The translations under genes were made by a program, and so were the position numbers. Under the pieces are notes generated by a model. It did not search any database. It saw only the letters and a list, made by a program, of their open reading frames with translations, and was not told where the DNA came from. Of a stretch of DNA of 64,000 nt, positions 5,201 to 14,016 are shown piece after piece. Every line of letters begins with the position of its first letter. The first letter of the stretch is position 1. Source of the DNA: Aurantiacibacter odishensis. GTDB taxonomy: Bacteria > Pseudomonadota > Alphaproteobacteria > Sphingomonadales > Sphingomonadaceae. Location: contig NZ_QYOS01000021.1 in assembly GCF_003605195.1 (NCBI RefSeq), positions 124,001 through 188,000 of the forward strand. Direction: 5' to 3'.

Positions 5201-7498
5201 TTAAAACTTGTTATCTTTCGGGAAGCCCTGCGGCGGCAATCGGCCAGCTGCGCCGCGTGCCACTTTCCACATGCCGATTTCGTTCTCGGTCCGGGTGCGG
5301 TCGCCCTTGCCGCCCATCTGCCAGCTCAGGCCCTCTTCCAGCGTGAAGGTGGTGGCATCGGAGAGGCCGCCGTCGCGGTAGCGTTGCAGAGTCACGCCCT
5401 GCCCGCGCGTCATGACTGGCATTTCCTCCAGCGCGAAAATCACCAGCTTGCGGTTCTCGCCCACCACGGCAACGTGATCGTGTGCGGGCGCCACTTCACG
5501 CGCCACGGTCAGCTTCGCATCGCCTTTCAGGTTGACCACCTGGCGGCCCTTGCGGGTCTCGGCCAGCAGCTCGTCGGTAATGGCGACGAAGCCCTTGCCG
5601 ATGGTGGAGGCGAGCAGCACCTGCTTGTCCTTCTCGTGCACCACCACGGCGATGATCTGGGTGGAGGCGTCGATATCCAGCGTGTTCCTCACCGGCTCGC
5701 CAAAGCCGCGCGCGCTGGGCAGCTTGTCCGCCCCCAGCGTGAAGAAGCGCCCGTCGGCCCCTGCCAGCAGCAGCTTGTCAGTCGTCTGGCAATGAACGGC
5801 GAAGGCCGGGCCATCGCCCTCCTTGTACTTGAAATCGCCGCAGCCGTCCTCGCCAAGGTCCACGTGGCCCTTCGCGGCGCGCACCCAGCCCTTGGCCGAG
5901 AGGATCACCGTTACCGGCTCCTTCTCGATCATGGCATCGGGATTGAATTCTACCGTCGGCGCAGCCTCGGCAATCGTCGTGCGGCGCGCGCCGATGGCGG
6001 TATCCTCGCCATATTCCTTGCGCAGGGCGGCCATGTCTCGCTTCAGCCGGGTGCGCTGGCGCGCCGGGCTTTCTAGCAGTTTCGTCAGCTCGTCCTGCTC
6101 TTTCAGCAGTTCGTCCTTCTCGGTGCGAAGCTGCATCTCCTCCAGCTTGCGCAAGCTGCGCAAACGCATGTTCAGGATGGCCTCGGTCTGCCTGTCGGTA
6201 AGGCCGAATTCCTCCATCATCACCGGCTTTGGCTCATCCTCTGTGCGGATGATCTCGATCACCCGGTCGAGGTTGAGGAAAGCGATGATGTAGCCTTCCA
6301 GCAGTTCCAGCCGGTCCGCGATCTTGGCCAGCCGGTGCGACGTGCGGCGTTGCAGAATCTCGATCTGGTGCGTGACCCAGTTCTGCAGCAGCTCCTTGAG
6401 CCCCATCACCATCGGCGTGCGGGTATGGTCCAGCACGTTGAGGTTGAGGCTGAAGCGCGTTTCAAGGTCCGTCAGCTTGTAGACGCTTTCCTTCAGCAGT
6501 TCGGGATCGACGTTGCGGCTGCGCGGCACCAGCACGATGCGTACCTGCTCGTCACTCTCGTCGCGCACGTCTTCCAGGATCGGCAGCTTCTTGTCACCGA
6601 TGGCGGCGGCGATCTGCTCGATCAGCTTGCTCTTGGGCACCTGGTAAGGGATTTCGGAAATGACGAGCTGGTATCCGCCGCCTTTCTGCCGTTCGATCCC
6701 GGCCTCGCGGTCGGCTGTGTTCTCCGCCTCCGCCGCAAAGAAACGCCCACGCACGCGGAAGGACCCACGGCCCGTTTCGTAGGCGTTGGAAATTGCCTCC
6801 GGGCTGTCGACCACAAGGCCGCCTGTGGCAAAGTCCGGCCCCTTGAACACGGTCATCAGCTCTTCGTGGGTAACGTCCTTGTTGAACATCACCATCTCGG
6901 CCGCATCCAGCACTTCGGCGACGTTGTGGCTGGGGATGCTGGTCGCCATGCCCACGGCGATGCCACTCGCCCCGTTCGCCAGCAGGTTGGGGAAGAGGCC
7001 GGGCATGATGACCGGTTCTTCTTCCTCGTTGTTGTAGGTGGGGATGAACTCGACCGTGCCCTCGTCCAGCCCGTCCATCAGCTGCATCGCGGTGCGCGTC
7101 AGCTTGCATTCGGTATAGCGGTAGGCGGCGGCGTTATCGCCGTCGATATTGCCGAAGTTGCCCTGCCCCTCCACCAGCGGATAGCGCAGCGTGAACGGCT
7201 GGGCGAGGCGCACCATCGCATCGTAGACCGCCACGTCGCCATGCGGGTGATACTTGCCGATCACGTCGCCCACGACGCGGGCAGACTTCTTGAACGTGCT
7301 GTCGGGCGAGAGGCGCAACTGCCGCATCGTCCACAACAGGCGGCGGTGGACCGGCTTCAGACCATCGCGCAGGTCCGGCAGCGAACGCGCTGTAATCGTT
7401 GACAGGGCGTAGACGAGATAACGCTCCGAAAGCGCGCTTTCGAAAGGTTCGCGGGTAATGCCCGCGCCGGAATCACTGGGTTCTTCAACGGTTGCCAT
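5201..7498 (-). CDS. parC: DNA topoisomerase IV subunit A
   Basis: 765 residues. The breakage-reunion domain is complete: [17 protein letters not shown] near residues 40-56, GKYHPHGD at 81-88, and the catalytic tyrosine in AAAYRYTE (R127-Y128). The C-terminal beta-propeller is short and lacks the GyrA box, which fits ParC rather than GyrA. The quinolone-contact position equivalent to E. coli Ser80 is Val89 and the Glu84 equivalent is Asp93. It is transcribed divergently from the pfpI-type gene across a 106-bp gap. The partner parE is not in the window. Confidence 0.92.
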
Positions 7499-7538
7499 GC
7501 GGTTTGCCCTATCACCGTCTCCATTCGGCGGACAGCGC

Positions 7539-7564
7539 GGAACGTGGGCCTTTCCCCACCCGTT
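7539..7564 (+). promoter_or_regulatory. EcfG-type general stress promoter
   Basis: GGAAC at 7539-7543, a 17-nt spacer, and CGTT at 7561-7564: an exact match to the established alphaproteobacterial EcfG consensus GGAAC-N16/17-CGTT. Transcription would start near 7572, leaving a 30-nt leader with CAGGAG at 7591-7596 before the ATG at 7605. The downstream gene is a stress-type PfpI/DJ-1 protein. Confidence 0.75.
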
Positions 7565-7604
7565 GCAGGGTCAAACACCAAATCACGAAACAGGAGCACA
7601 CATC

Positions 7605-8156
7605 ATGGCACAACGCGTAATGATCCTCGCCACCAACGGCTTCGAACAGTCGGAACTGGAAAAGCCCAAGGCGAACCTCGAAGACGCGGGTTACGAGACC
7701 GTCGTCGTCAGCCTGGAAGACGGTCAGATCAAGGGCTGGGACAAGGATGACTGGGGCAGCCCGGTCGATGTCGACCTCACGTTGGACGAGGCGACAGAAG
7801 CCGAATTCGATGCGCTCGTCCTGCCCGGCGGCCAGATCAATCCGGACCTGCTTCGCGTGGAAGACAAGGCCGTGCAGATGGTCAAGGATTTCAACACTGC
7901 CGGTAAGCCCATCGCCGCGATTTGCCACGCTCCGTGGCTGCTGATCGAAGCGGGCCTGCTGAAGGGTCGTGGCGCTACCAGTTACACCTCGATCCGTACC
8001 GACCTTGCCAATGCCGGCGCAAACGTGATGGACAAGGAAGTGGTGGTTGACGGCAACCTCATCACCAGCCGCAACCCGGACGATATCCCTGCATTCTCCA
8101 ATGCCATCATTGATGCGCTGAAGCGTCAGAGTGCGAAGTTTACGGAAGCCGCCTGA
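7605..8156 (+). CDS. PfpI/DJ-1 family stress protein
   Basis: 183 residues from the ATG behind CAGGAG. The class I glutamine amidotransferase-like fold of the PfpI/YhbO (general stress protein 18) group is shown by MILATNGFEQSELEKP at the N-terminus, the ALVLPGGQINPD loop and the nucleophile elbow AAICHAPWLL with a Cys-His pair. Relatives act as deglycases, chaperones or proteases; which one applies here cannot be read from sequence. It is a single-gene unit between an EcfG promoter and a strong terminator, so it probably belongs to the general stress regulon. Confidence 0.88.
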   Translation: MAQRVMILATNGFEQSELEKPKANLEDAGYETVVVSLEDGQIKGWDKDDWGSPVDVDLTLDEATEAEFDALVLPGGQINPDLLRVEDKAVQMVKDFNTAGKPIAAICHAPWLLIEAGLLKGRGATSYTSIRTDLANAGANVMDKEVVVDGNLITSRNPDDIPAFSNAIIDALKRQSAKFTEAA

Positions 8157-8208
8157 TCCCCGGAAACGACCCGACCTCCAACCTGGTCCGGGGATACCGG
8201 ACTTCGAC

Positions 8209-8249
8209 AAAGCCCCGCCGTGCTGAGCAAGCGCGGCGGGGCTTTCTTG
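8209..8249 (+). terminator. Rho-independent terminator
   Basis: 12-bp stem AAAGCCCCGCCG (8209-8220) with CGGCGGGGCTTT (8234-8245), followed by a T-rich tail (TTTCTT). It ends the pfpI-type transcript and argues against any start for the next gene before about 8290. Confidence 0.88.
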
Positions 8250-8303
8250 TGCGGGCCGGACCCTTCCCCGCCGCCGCGCATTGGAAATTCGATGGGGAAG
8301 ACA

Positions 8304-10013
8304 ATGCTTGATATCATCCGCCTGAAAACAGGCGCGCTGTTGCTCACGTTCTTGCTGGCCTTGGTATCTGCCGCACAGGCGCAGGACGGACGCACGGTCG
8401 CTGCCAGTTCGGAACCGTACGTCTACCAGGTCGAGCAGCTGCAGAACGGCGGTGGCTCCGGCACCCCGCTGGAACTCGATACGCCGATGGGCATGATCGA
8501 GACGTTCATGGCGGCAGGGGCGCAAGCAGACTGGCAGGCGGCCTCTGCAGCGATGGATTTTGCCAACGTCGATGCCGATGCGGGCGCGCGGCAGGAACTG
8601 GCGGCGCAGCTTTACGATCTGGTGCACCGATCCGTGTCGATAGAATGGGCGGACCTGCCCGACCGGCCCGACGCGGTCGATATCCTTGCCAGCGACAAGA
8701 ACCCCATGGCCGGCGTTGCGCGCCGTTCGATACGGCTGGCAACGCTGGACATGGACGGGCGGACTGTCCCCGTGCGCCTCGCCCGCGTGCAGGAACCGGG
8801 CGGAGAGCCGGTGTGGGTGTTCAGCCGCCAGACGGTCGCCAACGTGCCGCAGCTCTATGCCATTTACGGGCCCACGAAGTTCGAGCAATCGCTGCCGCCG
8901 ATGCTGCGCAAGCAGGCATTCTGGACGCTGGCCTGGTGGGAAGTGATCGCGCTGCCGCTGATACTGCTGCTGGGCGCGCTGGCCGCTGCGCTCACCTACC
9001 GCGCCATCGGGCATTTCCGTGACCGGATGGACGAGGACGGCAAGATTTTCGGTGTCTTGCAGGCCGTGCATCTTCCGGCAACGCTGCTGGCCTTCGCCGG
9101 GACATTCGCCCTCATCCGGGGCACTTTCTTCCGGCTGTCCGGTCCCGTCGCCGACCTGCTCAATCCCCTGCAGTTGCTCCTGATCATCGCAGCGGTGATC
9201 GGCATCATGCTTTCGGCGCTCGATTTCCTGTTCGATTTCGCCACAACGCGGCGCACCAGCAAGCTGGAAGCGCCGGAGAACAACGAGGACCGCAACTTCT
9301 ACACCAAGATGAGCGCGATCCGCCGCATCCTCACCGCCGTGCTGCTGCTGGCGGGCATCGGGTTCCTGCTGGTGGCCAGCAACATGTCAAACACGCTGGG
9401 CTTCTCGATAATCGCTTCTGCCGGGGTGCTGGGCCTGGTGCTGGTCTTCGCCGCGCGCAAGGTGCTGGGCGATATCATGGCCAGCGTGCAGATCGCCTTT
9501 GCCCGCAGCGCGCGGATTGGCGATGCCGTCTACTACGACGACCAGTGGTGCTACGTGGAGAAGATCGGCTTTACCCACCTGCGCCTGCGCAGCTGGGACG
9601 AGCGCCGCGTGATCGCACCTGTCAGCGCCTTCACCAGCGAGAGTTTCGAGAACTGGACCAAGCAGGACCCGAGCCTGATGGTGCATGTCGAGCTGGAGCT
9701 GGATCACCGCGCCGATGTGGATGCGCTACGCGGCCCGTTCCGCGAATTCGTCGAGAGCGACGAGGAGGTGATGGACCCCGACGATGCCGTTTGCGAGGTG
9801 GTGGGACACAAGGCCAATGCCATGATTGTGCGATTCATGGCGCGCGCGCAGGACCCCAAGGTCGGCTGGAAAATGCACTGCCGCCTGCGCGAACACATGC
9901 TCGCCGCCGCCGCCCGACTGGACGCCGGCGAAGGGAACGAACCCGGCCCCGCCTTCCTGCCCCGCGAACGCGAGGTGCGAATGGACCTGGCGGTGGAGGA
10001 GGAAGTGGGCTGA
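8304..10013 (+). CDS. MscS-family mechanosensitive ion channel
   Basis: 569 residues from the ATG preceded by GGGGAAG; an ATG at 8292 is possible. Residues 1-24 are a signal peptide. A periplasmic region of about 185 residues is followed by at least four membrane segments (for example VIALPLILLLGALAAALTY and LLIIAAVIGIMLSALDFLF), then the MscS pore and beta domain: GFSIIASAGVLGLVLVFAAR, KVLGDIMASVQIAF and GDAVYYDDQWCYVEKIG. The protein would open under membrane tension and release solutes. It is convergent with the next gene, with only 2 bp between stops. Confidence 0.85.
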   Translation: MLDIIRLKTGALLLTFLLALVSAAQAQDGRTVAASSEPYVYQVEQLQNGGGSGTPLELDTPMGMIETFMAAGAQADWQAASAAMDFANVDADAGARQELAAQLYDLVHRSVSIEWADLPDRPDAVDILASDKNPMAGVARRSIRLATLDMDGRTVPVRLARVQEPGGEPVWVFSRQTVANVPQLYAIYGPTKFEQSLPPMLRKQAFWTLAWWEVIALPLILLLGALAAALTYRAIGHFRDRMDEDGKIFGVLQAVHLPATLLAFAGTFALIRGTFFRLSGPVADLLNPLQLLLIIAAVIGIMLSALDFLFDFATTRRTSKLEAPENNEDRNFYTKMSAIRRILTAVLLLAGIGFLLVASNMSNTLGFSIIASAGVLGLVLVFAARKVLGDIMASVQIAFARSARIGDAVYYDDQWCYVEKIGFTHLRLRSWDERRVIAPVSAFTSESFENWTKQDPSLMVHVELELDHRADVDALRGPFREFVESDEEVMDPDDAVCEVVGHKANAMIVRFMARAQDPKVGWKMHCRLREHMLAAAARLDAGEGNEPGPAFLPREREVRMDLAVEEEVG

Positions 10014-10015
10014 AC

Positions 10016-11305
10016 CTAGCTTTCTGCTGCCAGGGCAGATGCGAGCGAGAGAACGCGGTCCGAACCGACTTCTCCTGCCAGCGCGTAGGCAAACGGTCCG
10101 CTTTCCCAGTAGGCCAGCGAACGGCCTTCGCGCGTCTCGAGCAAGGGCAGTTTCTCGGCCGGCGTTTCCGCCCGCGTCGCAAACATCGACACGCTCTCGC
10201 CAGCCGCCGTCTCCATCACCAGCGCCACGGCAGGGCCGTGATCGGACGGATAAACCTGCACATCTTTCAGCGCCCAGTCGGCAGGGATAGCAGGCAGATT
10301 TATACCCGTGGCGCTGGCGATCTCGCGCCGGTCCAGCAGCGGCGATTCGAGTTGCGAGGCCATGCGAAGGCGCGCCTGTGAGGCATGGTAGGAGGCGTCG
10401 GCTTCTTCGATGAAGGATGCAGCGCTTGCCGGTTGTTCGCCCACGGTGGCGTTGACGATCCAGCCCCCGGCGAAAGCCAGCGCCAGCATCGCCGCCCGCT
10501 GCCAGCCGACCGATCGAGCAGGCGCGGCCTTCTGCGGGAAGGCCACGACCTCGGCGCTGCGGCGCTTGCGGCCGACCAGCGTGCCCTTCGTGCTGCCCGC
10601 CACACGCTCGAAATCGATCTGCGGCCAGCGTTCGCGCCAGCGCCGCGCGACGATCCGCTCTCCCGGCCGCGCGCCGTCGTCCAGCAGGACGATGGCTCCG
10701 GGCGAAAGGCGCTCGAACAGGCAATCCGCCGCCCCGCGAACGAAAGGATGGACGGACCACGGCGGCCCGTCGATGATGAGCAGGTCAATGGTGTCAGGCA
10801 GGTTCGACAGGTCGTACCACCGGCCCGGCCAGCCCGGTACGCTGGCGGTCAGCGGAGCGTGAGCCATTCGCGCATTCGCACCTTCCTCGGCCAGCCATTC
10901 TCTCGTTGCCTGAACGAAGCCCGCGTGCTGGTCATAGCTGTGCAGTGTGCCGCCGCCGTTCTGTTCCAGCGCCTTCGCGCAGACGAGCGAGGTTGCCCCG
11001 GCCCCCAGCTCGACCACGTTGGCAGGACGCAGTTCTTCCACCGCGTCCACGATGCGATGCAGGAAGCCGGTGTCCGCCTTCCAGCTGCCGAGGTTCGGCA
11101 AGGCATCCTCGCGCAGGCCCACGCGTTCCAGCAGGCGGCGCTTCTCGGCCTTGCGCCCGCCCCACAGGCTGAACAGCAGCCACGGCCATCCGATTGCACC
11201 GAACGCCAGCCGATAGGCCATGTCGGAGGCTGGGGTGCTCGAAGCGGGCGCCTCGTCCTCGTCGCTGGCGAGGGAGAAAAGCGGCGTGGTGTTGCGAGAG
11301 GTCAT
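10016..11305 (-). CDS. SAM methyltransferase fused to an anti-sigma-like periplasmic domain
   Basis: 429 residues in one uninterrupted frame with two unlike halves. Residues about 75-245 are a class I methyltransferase: VVELGAGATSLVCAKAL (SAM motif I, 96-112), IDLLIIDGPPW (172-182) and IVLLDDGARPGER (204-216). A basic linker leads to one membrane segment at about 268-286 (AAMLALAFAGGWIVNATV). Residues 296-429 resemble the periplasmic part of sphingomonad anti-sigma factors: FIEEADASYHASQARLRM, then ATGINLPAIPADWALKDVQ, YPSDHGP and YWESGPFAYALAG. The usual cytoplasmic sigma-binding segment is absent and the methyltransferase stands in its place. No ECF sigma gene is adjacent. The domain calls are from recognition of pattern, not alignment. 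Confidence 0.65.
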   Translation of the reverse strand: MTSRNTTPLFSLASDEDEAPASSTPASDMAYRLAFGAIGWPWLLFSLWGGRKAEKRRLLERVGLREDALPNLGSWKADTGFLHRIVDAVEELRPANVVELGAGATSLVCAKALEQNGGGTLHSYDQHAGFVQATREWLAEEGANARMAHAPLTASVPGWPGRWYDLSNLPDTIDLLIIDGPPWSVHPFVRGAADCLFERLSPGAIVLLDDGARPGERIVARRWRERWPQIDFERVAGSTKGTLVGRKRRSAEVVAFPQKAAPARSVGWQRAAMLALAFAGGWIVNATVGEQPASAASFIEEADASYHASQARLRMASQLESPLLDRREIASATGINLPAIPADWALKDVQVYPSDHGPAVALVMETAAGESVSMFATRAETPAEKLPLLETREGRSLAYWESGPFAYALAGEVGSDRVLSLASALAAES

Positions 11306-11422: not shown

Positions 11423-11752
11423 TCAGAACCCCTGCGCGTCGTTGCTGTCGCTGGGAATGCGCACTTCGAGGCCGTCCAACTCTTCGGTCAGCAGGATCTG
11501 GCAGGACAGGCGGCTGGTGGCGTGAACGTCGGCGGCAAGGTCGAGCATGTCCTCCTCGTCCTCCACCGCTTCGGGCAATTTGCCGAACCATTCGCGCGCC
11601 ACGATCACGTGGCAGGTGGAGCACGCCATCTGCCCCTCGCACGTGCCTTCCAGCGGCATACCCGCGGCCTGGCCGACTTCCAGCAGCCGGTCGCCGGGGG
11701 AAGCTTCTGCCTCAACCCTTTCGCCCTTGCGTGTAATGAAGGTGACTTTGAT
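11423..11752 (-). CDS. [2Fe-2S] ferredoxin, adrenodoxin/ISC type
   Basis: 109 residues if translation begins at an ATC codon (11752-11750). The cluster ligands follow C-x5-C-x2-C-x36-C: C38, C44, C47, C84, as in vertebrate-type/ISC ferredoxins. The reading frame contains no ATG, GTG or TTG between the upstream stop and an internal ATG at 11659, and starting there would delete the first beta-hairpin (KVTFITRKGERVEAE). AAGGA at 11765-11761 lies 8 nt before the ATC. It directly follows the cysteine desulfurase gene (stop 11760-11758), so it probably supplies electrons for Fe-S assembly. Confidence 0.8.
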   Translation of the reverse strand: MKVTFITRKGERVEAEASPGDRLLEVGQAAGMPLEGTCEGQMACSTCHVIVAREWFGKLPEAVEDEEDMLDLAADVHATSRLSCQILLTEELDGLEVRIPSDSNDAQGF

Positions 11753-11757
11753 GGCGT

Positions 11758-12831
11758 CTATCCTTGCTGCGATGCAGCATTGATAAGCTTTTCGGCGGCC
11801 AGTTCAAGCTGCTCCATGCTGGTGTAGCGCCCGAAGCCCAGCCGGATGGAGCTTTTTGCCTTCTTCGCGCTCAGCCCGATGGCCTGGAGCACGTGGCTGG
11901 GCCTGCCCGATCCGCTGGCGCAGGCCGAGCCTGCCGAGAACATCACGTCGCGGCAGTCCGACATCAGGCGCGCCACGTCCAATCCCTTGCGGCGGATATT
12001 GAGATTGCCGTGCCAGCGCGCTTCCGCGCTGCCGTTCAGCTCCCAGTCCGCGAACAGTTCGCGCGCGCGGTGCCACAGCGCCTCGACGTGGGCGGCATCG
12101 TCCTCCATCCGCTCCTTCGCCACCATGGCCGCCGCGCCGAAGCCTGCGCACAGAGCCGGGCTAAGCGTGCCTGAGCGAATATTCGCCTCCTGGCCGCCGC
12201 CGGTCTGTTGCGGTTCGAGTTCGATACCGTTCCTCACCCACAGCGCGCCGATGCCCTTGGGGCCGTGAATCTTGTGCGCGGAAACGGCGATCATGTCCGC
12301 GCCTGCCAGCGGCATCTTGCCATAGGCCTGCACCGCGTCGCACAGGTAAAGCGCGCCCGCTTCCTTCGCCTTGCGATGGAATTCCACCGTGGGCTGGATC
12401 ACGCCGATCTCGTTGTTCACCTGCATCACGCAGACGAGCTTGGTGTCGTTCGGAATGTCCTGCTTCACGTTGCACTGCCCGTCCTTGGCGACGTTCAGTT
12501 CGTGCGCCTTGCCAATGGCGTGGGCGGTATCGAGCACGGCGGCATGTTCGATGGCGGACACGCTGATCGCGCCCTTGCCGGGGCACCCGCGCATGGCGAG
12601 ATTGATCGCCTCGGTCGCGCCGCTGGTGAAGATCACCTGCCCGTTCGGCGGAAACAGCGCCGCCACCCTGTCCCGCGCGAGGTCTATCGCCGCGGCGGCT
12701 TGCCTGCCCATGCGGTGCGGAGAGTGCGGATTGCCGAACGCGGTGCCATCAGGCCCGTCGAGCCATTGCAGCATGGCATCGCGCGCTTCGGGCGCGAGGG
12801 GAGTGGTTGCCTGGTAGTCGAGGTAGATCAC
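11758..12831 (-). CDS. cysteine desulfurase (NifS/IscS family), second of a pair
   Basis: 357 residues. Class V aminotransferase fold: YLDYQATTPLAP at the N-terminus, the PLP lysine K187 in VSAHKIHGPKGIGALW, and the sulfur-accepting cysteine C304 in FSAGSACASGSGR. The S-x-S-A-C-x-S-G-x-G-x-P loop is close to the IscS type. It converts cysteine to alanine and passes persulfide sulfur to Fe-S or tRNA thiolation pathways. It lies between an upstream paralogue (100 bp away, with an inverted repeat between) and the ferredoxin gene. No scaffold (iscU) or chaperone gene is present nearby. Confidence 0.88.
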   Translation of the reverse strand: MIYLDYQATTPLAPEARDAMLQWLDGPDGTAFGNPHSPHRMGRQAAAAIDLARDRVAALFPPNGQVIFTSGATEAINLAMRGCPGKGAISVSAIEHAAVLDTAHAIGKAHELNVAKDGQCNVKQDIPNDTKLVCVMQVNNEIGVIQPTVEFHRKAKEAGALYLCDAVQAYGKMPLAGADMIAVSAHKIHGPKGIGALWVRNGIELEPQQTGGGQEANIRSGTLSPALCAGFGAAAMVAKERMEDDAAHVEALWHRARELFADWELNGSAEARWHGNLNIRRKGLDVARLMSDCRDVMFSAGSACASGSGRPSHVLQAIGLSAKKAKSSIRLGFGRYTSMEQLELAAEKLINAASQQG

Positions 12832-12847
12832 TACAAACCCTTTTAAA

Positions 12848-12929
12848 CCGAACGGGCTGAGCTTGTCGAAGCCCTGCTTTTCCCGTTCACTAAAGAAGGA
12901 CAGCCCTTCGACAGGCTCAGGGCGGTCGG
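12848..12929. repeat. sphingomonad-type intergenic inverted repeat
   Basis: Two arms of about 29 bp in opposite orientation, 12848-12876 and 12901-12929, share the core CTGAGC(T/C)TGTCGAAG. They are separated by 24 bp. I recall this core as a frequent intergenic repeat in Sphingomonadales genomes. It lies between the two cysteine desulfurase genes and could fold into a long hairpin in the transcript. Confidence 0.75.
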
Positions 12930-12930
12930 A

Positions 12931-14016
12931 TCAGAGAAGCGACTTCCAAGCCTGCGCAAAGGCATCAAGTTCCTCTGCCGTGGTGTTCCAGCCAAGCGAG
13001 ACGCGGATAGTGCGGCTGGCGACATCATCGGGCACACCAAAGGCATCGAGCACCCGGCTTTTCTTGAGCGTGCCGGACGAGCAAGCACTACCTGCCGAAA
13101 CGGCAAAACCCGTCGCATCCAGCCGGATCAGCAGCGCCTGCGCGCTCAAGCTGGGATGCGCTACCGAATAGATATGCGAGGCCTGCAAGCCCGGCATCAG
13201 AACCTCACCCCCGGAATAAAGCGCGTTCTTGAAATCGAATTGCTGCTCTACCGTGGTGGCCCAACGTTCGATCCCACCACATTCAAGCGCCGCAGCCATA
13301 CCCATGATTGCAGGGAGGTTCTCGGTTCCCCGGCGATATCCGCGTTCGTGGCCGCCGCTGGGTTTCAGCAGGGCATAGTCCCTGACCAGCAACGCGCCGA
13401 TCCCTATCGGCCCGCCGAACTTGTGCGCTGCCACGATGGCCATGTCCGCGCCGTCAGGGATGGGATACTTGCCGGCACTCTGCGCGCAATCGACCAGCAG
13501 CAGACCATTGGCATCGTGGACCGTCTGCGCCACCTTTGTTATATTCTGGATCGTCCCCGTCTCTGAATTGACGTGTTGGACCGCGACGAGCGTCCTGTTC
13601 TCTCCGCCAGTCTCGAGCACGGCAGACGGCTCGCAAGCCTGCGCCACAAAGGTGAGATCGACTTCACCATCCTCGCCAATCGGAATCTCGGTCTCGCCCT
13701 CACCAACGTAGCGGTGCAGGGCATCGTGTTCGACCGCGCTGATTGCGGTGTGAATTGTCTGCGCCTGTCCAAAGGCCAGCGCCGCCGCCTCGCTCGCGCC
13801 CGAGGTGAAGATCAGTTCGCCGTCCCAGCCAAGCGCCGCCTTGCACCGCGCCCGCGCATCTTCCAGCGCCGCCTTTGCCTTGCGCCCTTCGCCATGGGGT
13901 GAGGACGGGTTGGCCCAGATTGCAAAGCCCTCTTCCACCGCAGCTTTCGCTTCGGGGCGCAGCGGAGTCGTGGCGGCGTGATCGAGATAGATGCGCTGGT
14001 CTGGCACGGCGCTCAC
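12931..14016 (-). CDS. cysteine desulfurase (NifS/IscS family), first of a pair
   Basis: 361 residues. IYLDHAATTPLRPEA at the N-terminus, PLP lysine K199 in VAAHKFGGPIGIGALL, and active cysteine C312 in SAGSACSSGTLKKSRVL. The sequence is clearly divergent from its downstream neighbour: about the first 200 residues share only motifs, and the cysteine loop is SSG-T rather than ASGSG. The pair therefore is not a recent duplication. Likely role: sulfur mobilisation for Fe-S clusters or thio-cofactors, in one operon with the second desulfurase and the ferredoxin. Confidence 0.87.
   Translation of the reverse strand: MSAVPDQRIYLDHAATTPLRPEAKAAVEEGFAIWANPSSPHGEGRKAKAALEDARARCKAALGWDGELIFTSGASEAAALAFGQAQTIHTAISAVEHDALHRYVGEGETEIPIGEDGEVDLTFVAQACEPSAVLETGGENRTLVAVQHVNSETGTIQNITKVAQTVHDANGLLLVDCAQSAGKYPIPDGADMAIVAAHKFGGPIGIGALLVRDYALLKPSGGHERGYRRGTENLPAIMGMAAALECGGIERWATTVEQQFDFKNALYSGGEVLMPGLQASHIYSVAHPSLSAQALLIRLDATGFAVSAGSACSSGTLKKSRVLDAFGVPDDVASRTIRVSLGWNTTAEELDAFAQAWKSLL

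Follow-up and report, generated by a model that had tools for sequence, protein, structure and literature searches.

A predicted membrane-anchored methyltransferase with an anti-sigma-type tail, most likely a one-protein sensor-enzyme of sphingomonads

A methyltransferase and an anti-sigma-type domain in one protein

What would the sensor domain of an anti-sigma factor do on an enzyme? The question is raised by a gene in a 64,000-nucleotide stretch of the Aurantiacibacter odishensis genome (contig NZ_QYOS01000021.1, positions 124,001 to 188,000; hereafter the window), which joins a methyltransferase, through one hydrophobic segment, to a domain resembling the periplasmic part of anti-sigma factors of the extracytoplasmic function (ECF) group. 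The gene lies at positions 10016..11305 of the window on the minus strand, as do all of its parts given below, and encodes 429 amino acids plus a stop, with an ATG start codon at 11305, the stop at 10016-10018 and no internal stop. The layout described in an earlier note on this DNA (an intact 429-codon frame with an S-adenosylmethionine (SAM) binding half, a hydrophobic segment and an anti-sigma-like C-terminal region) was confirmed, and its interpretation, in which the sensor half now controls a methyltransferase, is partly supported: the protein is most likely a one-protein sensor-enzyme built with an anti-sigma tail.

With regard to the N-terminal half, residues 63-250 (10556..11119) form a class I SAM-dependent O-methyltransferase domain (Methyltransf_24, COMT-like). 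Methyltransf_24 was the single family recognised by Pfam in the 429-aa protein (residues 98-210, E 5e-11), and the score of 43.9 bits against a curated cut-off of 26.3 places the protein in this family (PF13578). The SAM-binding and catalytic Asp positions, aligned to 8c9s, are invariant in all 39 fusions compared. These include D179 in the IDGPPW motif (10769..10771), which aligns with an Asp of COMT-like enzymes and which we take to be a metal ligand, and D209-D210 (10676..10681), which align with the Asp-Asn pair of these enzymes and presumably share its role. Judged by its sequence, the COMT-like enzyme in residues ~63-250 is intact, with O-methyl transfer as the predicted reaction.

The C-terminal half (residues 295-429, 10019..10423) is a module of the anti-sigma type, predicted to be periplasmic. 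The identity of the window tail to the 13 aligned anti-sigma sequences is 27-41%, and the similarity to anti-sigma factors is significant, so the assignment made in the earlier note held and the two domains are homologous. The predicted structure of residues 287-429 alone reached a predicted local distance difference test score (pLDDT) of 87.1 and a predicted template modelling score (pTM) of 0.83, and residues 323-429 (10019..10339) have a fold like that of the RseB/MucB C-terminal domain (PF17188), with profile-profile similarity over ~100 columns. PF17188 itself had no hit at E <= 0.01 in the window genome and none in the Pfam scan of the protein, the C-terminal half alone matched nothing in Pfam and NCBIfam up to E 10 (with filters that remove most weak matches), and no structurally solved relative of the tail was convincing by sequence alone (one match, E 1.8). 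Some tails gave weak Pfam matches to DUF4245 (E 0.018-0.41, all below cut-off), and the periplasmic domain of alphaproteobacterial anti-sigma factors reached no Pfam cut-off in our scans.

The two halves are connected by a variable basic linker (residues 251-268, 10502..10555), presumably on the cytoplasmic side, and a membrane-like helix (residues 269-287, 10445..10501) with an invariant G281-W282. Across the 39 fusions the mean number of lysines plus arginines drops from 6.5 before the helix (residues 244-270) to 0.8 after it, which fits a passage from cytoplasm to periplasm and a periplasmic tail; the median hydropathy of the helix is lower in fusions (1.27) than in anti-sigma factors (1.72). 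A signal-peptidase-like A-x-A is kept within a variable stretch at residues 293-295 (10421..10429): residue 293 is A in 37 fusions and V in two, residue 295 is A in all 39, and most neighbouring residues vary. This pattern is as expected from the -3/-1 rule for signal peptidase I. A site of the type [AV]-x-A just past the helix, as in RsiV, is thus present in 39/39, and [AVT]-x-A also occurs in 39/39, compared to a mean of 3.0 and a maximum of 8 of 39 in shuffled sequences, while an amphipathic helix after the site (moment vs shuffles, p < 0.1) was found in 0/39. In the window genome, M50 was matched at two loci and Peptidase_S26 twice. A moderately hydrophobic stretch nearer the N-terminus (residues 29-47, 11165..11221), mostly of low pLDDT in the model, may be a first membrane contact, and is found in stand-alone relatives too.

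Conservation of the fusion

Searches of 37 genomes of the same genus (including that of the window, and several of them incomplete) found the fused gene in eight and a stand-alone methyltransferase in two, together with one tailed sulfotransferase and one tailed anti-sigma-like protein. Among the best 80 of 211 relatives in named genomes, 52 loci contain the fusion (50 intact) and 28 a stand-alone methyltransferase, a ratio which is not a frequency because the list holds the best matches; the closest named species that carries it in this set is Aurantiacibacter zhengii (87%). Residues 1-250 align with the tail-less stand-alone methyltransferases, which are 52-66% identical to the catalytic half, and the tail profile had no match in the 28 stand-alone loci (among L118-L146). 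A methyltransferase tree of 51 fused and 30 stand-alone rows has two changes between these states, from which it follows that the fusion is old and has been kept. Croceicoccus bisphenolivorans H4 has two different fusion copies in one strain (L075, L077).

The alternative that two genes were joined by an indel, which the earlier note had allowed for, failed: the homologues are single genes, and the frame is intact in 8/8 carriers of the same genus and in 50/52 named fusion loci, the two broken copies (L115, L121) being from two Sphingobium records. That note also knew of no described system of this layout, and in the open-licence literature, judged from titles and the starts of abstracts, we found no recognisable description of an anti-sigma periplasmic domain joined to an enzyme (the link between tail and RseB was outside this search). 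The layout is not isolated, but belongs to an old Sphingomonadales family, and the tail is also found on other enzymes.

The tail on other enzymes

Tails of any kind were present in at least 61/397 genomes of the family (E <= 1e-3) and, at E <= 1e-5, in at least 20/396 genomes of the order and at least 48/385 of the class, which are lower bounds because few candidates per genome were scored (as a rule nine; genome G026 matched in the family scan and was missed in the order scan). At E <= 1e-5, tails were found in 64/94 genomes of genus code g97, which includes Sphingobium. The 118 distinct tails comprise 63 on Methyltransf_24 enzymes, 46 on anti-sigma factors, three on FkbM methyltransferases, three on enzymes labelled GPT-like, two on sulfotransferases and one (L065, genome G214) with an N-terminal partner that could not be determined; where the pattern failed, rows were assigned by eye, eight of them to the anti-sigma factors and two (L056, L115) to the methyltransferases. 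A later set of 40 loci (34 Methyltransf_24, five FkbM and one anti-sigma) may repeat strains, and was kept out of the counts.

The FkbM fusions match PF05050 over the cut-off, and with the five found later FkbM methyltransferases with this kind of tail are seen at L223, L224, L225 and L271-L275. The sulfotransferases match PF00685 (E 1.7e-24 and 3.5e-22) and come from two genera (L034:9228-10727, L226:6986-8389). The GPT-like label stands for one weak match, of L054 to PF04464 (16.6 bits, cut-off 22.1); L059 and L060 have no match to PF04464, and searching a structure library with the L054 sequence was uninformative. Tailed enzymes of ~580 aa (L221, L222, L227) are perhaps glycosyl- or glycerophosphotransferase-like, and the unreadable N-terminal partner of a tail at ~6898-7383 of L228 may belong to yet another kind or reflect a problem with the frame. 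In a looser scan leaving out L115 and L065, the signal-peptidase-like site was found in 62/62 Methyltransf_24, 2/2 sulfotransferase, 3/3 GPT-like and 2/3 FkbM tails, and in 27/46 anti-sigma tails (the site could not be read in three of the 46).

Phylogenetic trees were made of 112 tails (a quick tree leaving out L056, L115 and tails <120 aa) and of 64 tails, the 64 being what was left once 22 more rows (unplaced or on long branches) and 26 near-copies had been removed. The sulfotransferase tails lie within the Methyltransf_24 tails, with 99/97 support for a set of six, and constraining the Methyltransf_24 tails to one clade was rejected (p 0.00044), from which we conclude that the tail has moved between enzyme kinds. 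The FkbM tails group with anti-sigma tails, and the grouping of all enzyme tails in one clade was neither shown nor rejected (p 0.104). The larger tree agrees with the smaller one, and places distant anti-sigma rows on long branches. The tail of a Qipengyuania huizhouensis methyltransferase fusion (L116:6001-7296) groups with the two sulfotransferase tails (support 100/99).

Sigma partners and gene neighbourhoods

With a sigma profile that started from three genes of the window genome and was widened with matches in the same loci, a sigma-like open reading frame was found in the fetched stretch of 44/46 anti-sigma loci, each overlapping the stop-to-stop frame of the tail gene or lying 4 bases off. 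There was none in the stretches of the 63 Methyltransf_24, three FkbM, three GPT-like and two sulfotransferase loci, nor in wider stretches (6-19 kb) around the FkbM, GPT-like and sulfotransferase fusions. No anti-sigma domain was listed in the window protein up to E 10, but Pfam lists none in the anti-sigma-like L011 either. As a sigma-binding domain and a sigma gene were both looked for and not found, the window protein is no anti-sigma factor. The suggestion in the earlier note of a missing ECF sigma gene was not borne out: the window genome has six sigma-region-2 matches, and its three ECF-type genes each have a regulator-like gene (NepR-like, anti-sigma-like and FecR-like) adjoining or within ~500 bases. 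Here and below, gene names were read from the sequence unless Pfam or an annotation is mentioned.

Some neighbours of the fusion are kept within clades, at up to 32 loci, while neither a neighbourhood conserved across clades nor a glycan cluster around the fusion was found. An ABC-transporter-like family is a conserved neighbour in 32 fusion loci, and in L107 such a gene (7396-9183) follows the fusion on the same strand after ~100 bases. In the window, two consecutive cysteine-desulfurase-like genes and then a 2Fe-2S ferredoxin gene (Fer2 by Pfam) lie directly upstream of the fusion on the same strand (11423-14016), the ferredoxin and one desulfurase cluster being present again at five other fusion loci, and the fusion gene is convergent with an MscS-like channel gene. 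The FkbM fusion L224 adjoins sulfotransferase-like and glycan-type genes.

With regard to the anti-sigma relatives, the order ECF gene, anti-sigma gene with an RseB-C-like tail and Bax inhibitor-1/YccA gene is found on three annotated plasmids (L237, L238, L239) and again in L235 and L236. DUF2076 comes next in some, and the arrangement is likely an envelope-stress operon in Alphaproteobacteria. Peroxiredoxin-like or AhpC-like genes neighbour the anti-sigma loci L229, L230, L232 and L233, and a glycosyltransferase gene adjoins the ECF gene in L231 (by Pfam) and L232. These neighbours hint at envelope or oxidative stress, without thereby naming the signal.

Proposed function and alternatives

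We see about even chances that the protein is a membrane-anchored O-methyltransferase bearing an ECF anti-sigma sensor tail that determines how active the enzyme is, where it sits or how long it lasts. The cytoplasmic half would most likely work at the inner membrane and methylate a hydroxyl of an envelope glycan or of a lipid-linked precursor, and the helix would lead the chain into the periplasm, exposing the RseB/MucB-C-like domain. On an anti-sigma factor, this tail presumably serves to switch a sigma factor in response to an envelope signal; in the fusion, its target is most likely the enzyme itself. A plausible switch would be cleavage by signal peptidase at the conserved A-x-A, followed by a site-2 protease, and the effect may run in either direction, with the cut enzyme released or destroyed as with RsiV and RsiP.

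The main rival, which we consider possible but rather unlikely, is that the tail does no switching and only tethers the enzyme to the inner membrane or docks it to an envelope assembly complex. Enzyme families carrying the tail often act on glycans at the membrane, which fits this explanation, as does the conserved ABC-transporter-like neighbour. The stand-alone methyltransferases also favour it, and their existence indicates that the tail is not needed for catalysis. A docking role would further agree with the binding of the RseA periplasmic domain by RseB (PMC8103513). However, a conserved folded domain of 130 residues, shared with anti-sigma factors, exceeds the needs of an anchor, and the A-x-A is kept inside a variable linker.

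The same site could be read differently, with the helix as an internal signal peptide that signal peptidase always cuts after A295, so that the methyltransferase stays in the cytoplasm and the RseB-C-like part becomes a separate periplasmic protein. While the basic region, the short and moderately hydrophobic stretch and the invariable presence of [AV]-x-A suit constitutive splitting, it is improbable: the halves remain fused across genera, constant cutting would defeat control in anti-sigma factors with this tail, and little more than half of the latter have the site in the looser scan. Finally, a decoy tail that competes with true anti-sigma factors for a periplasmic ligand or protease, thereby tuning an ECF response, is conceivable in genomes with both a fusion and a tailed anti-sigma factor (e.g. 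L053 and L192 in G385), but is highly improbable as a second copy of the tail was not found in the window genome, the next match covering 18 positions at E 0.4.

Returning to the sensor-enzyme, a broader and more tentative proposal is that sphingomonads own a transferable envelope-sensing cassette (helix, signal-peptidase-like site and RseB-C-like domain), which may be put either on anti-sigma domains, for transcription, or on enzymes that modify surface glycans (two methyltransferase kinds, a sulfotransferase and perhaps a glycosyl- or glycerophosphotransferase type), where the same kind of signal would change surface chemistry immediately and without gene expression. Anti-sigma tails are regarded as inputs to transcription; if the proposal is true, envelope-stress input would be wired straight to surface-modifying enzymes, as suggested by the tail on two methyltransferase families, a sulfotransferase and one weakly assigned kind, by its exchange and by the lack of a sigma partner. 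As several enzymes and several sigma regulons share the tail, one may look for a ligand or protease that they have in common.

Comparison with known systems

The catalytic half is like the Methyltransf_24/COMT-like O-methyltransferases, of which the stand-alone form ends at about residue 244-252 and lacks the tail. Alphaproteobacterial ECF anti-sigma factors (zf-HC2-like N-terminus, helix, periplasmic domain) have the same tail and the same cytoplasmic-helix-periplasmic order, whereas in the window protein an enzyme replaces the sigma-binding N-terminus and no sigma gene adjoins. The likeness of the tail to the RseB/MucB C-terminal domain, in fold and profile, ties these anti-sigma factors to an envelope-stress sensor that has been studied in depth. 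RseB is a protein of its own in the periplasm and also has a lipid-binding-like domain at its N-terminus, whereas the window protein has the C-terminal-type domain only, fused to a membrane protein. In RsiV and RsiP of Bacillus, signal peptidase is the site-1 protease of the anti-sigma factor. The site of RsiV lies just outside the helix, as does the signal-peptidase-like site of the window protein, but the periplasmic domain of RsiV is a DUF4179, unlike the window tail, no counterpart of a protective amphipathic helix was found among the fusions, and the output here is an enzyme.
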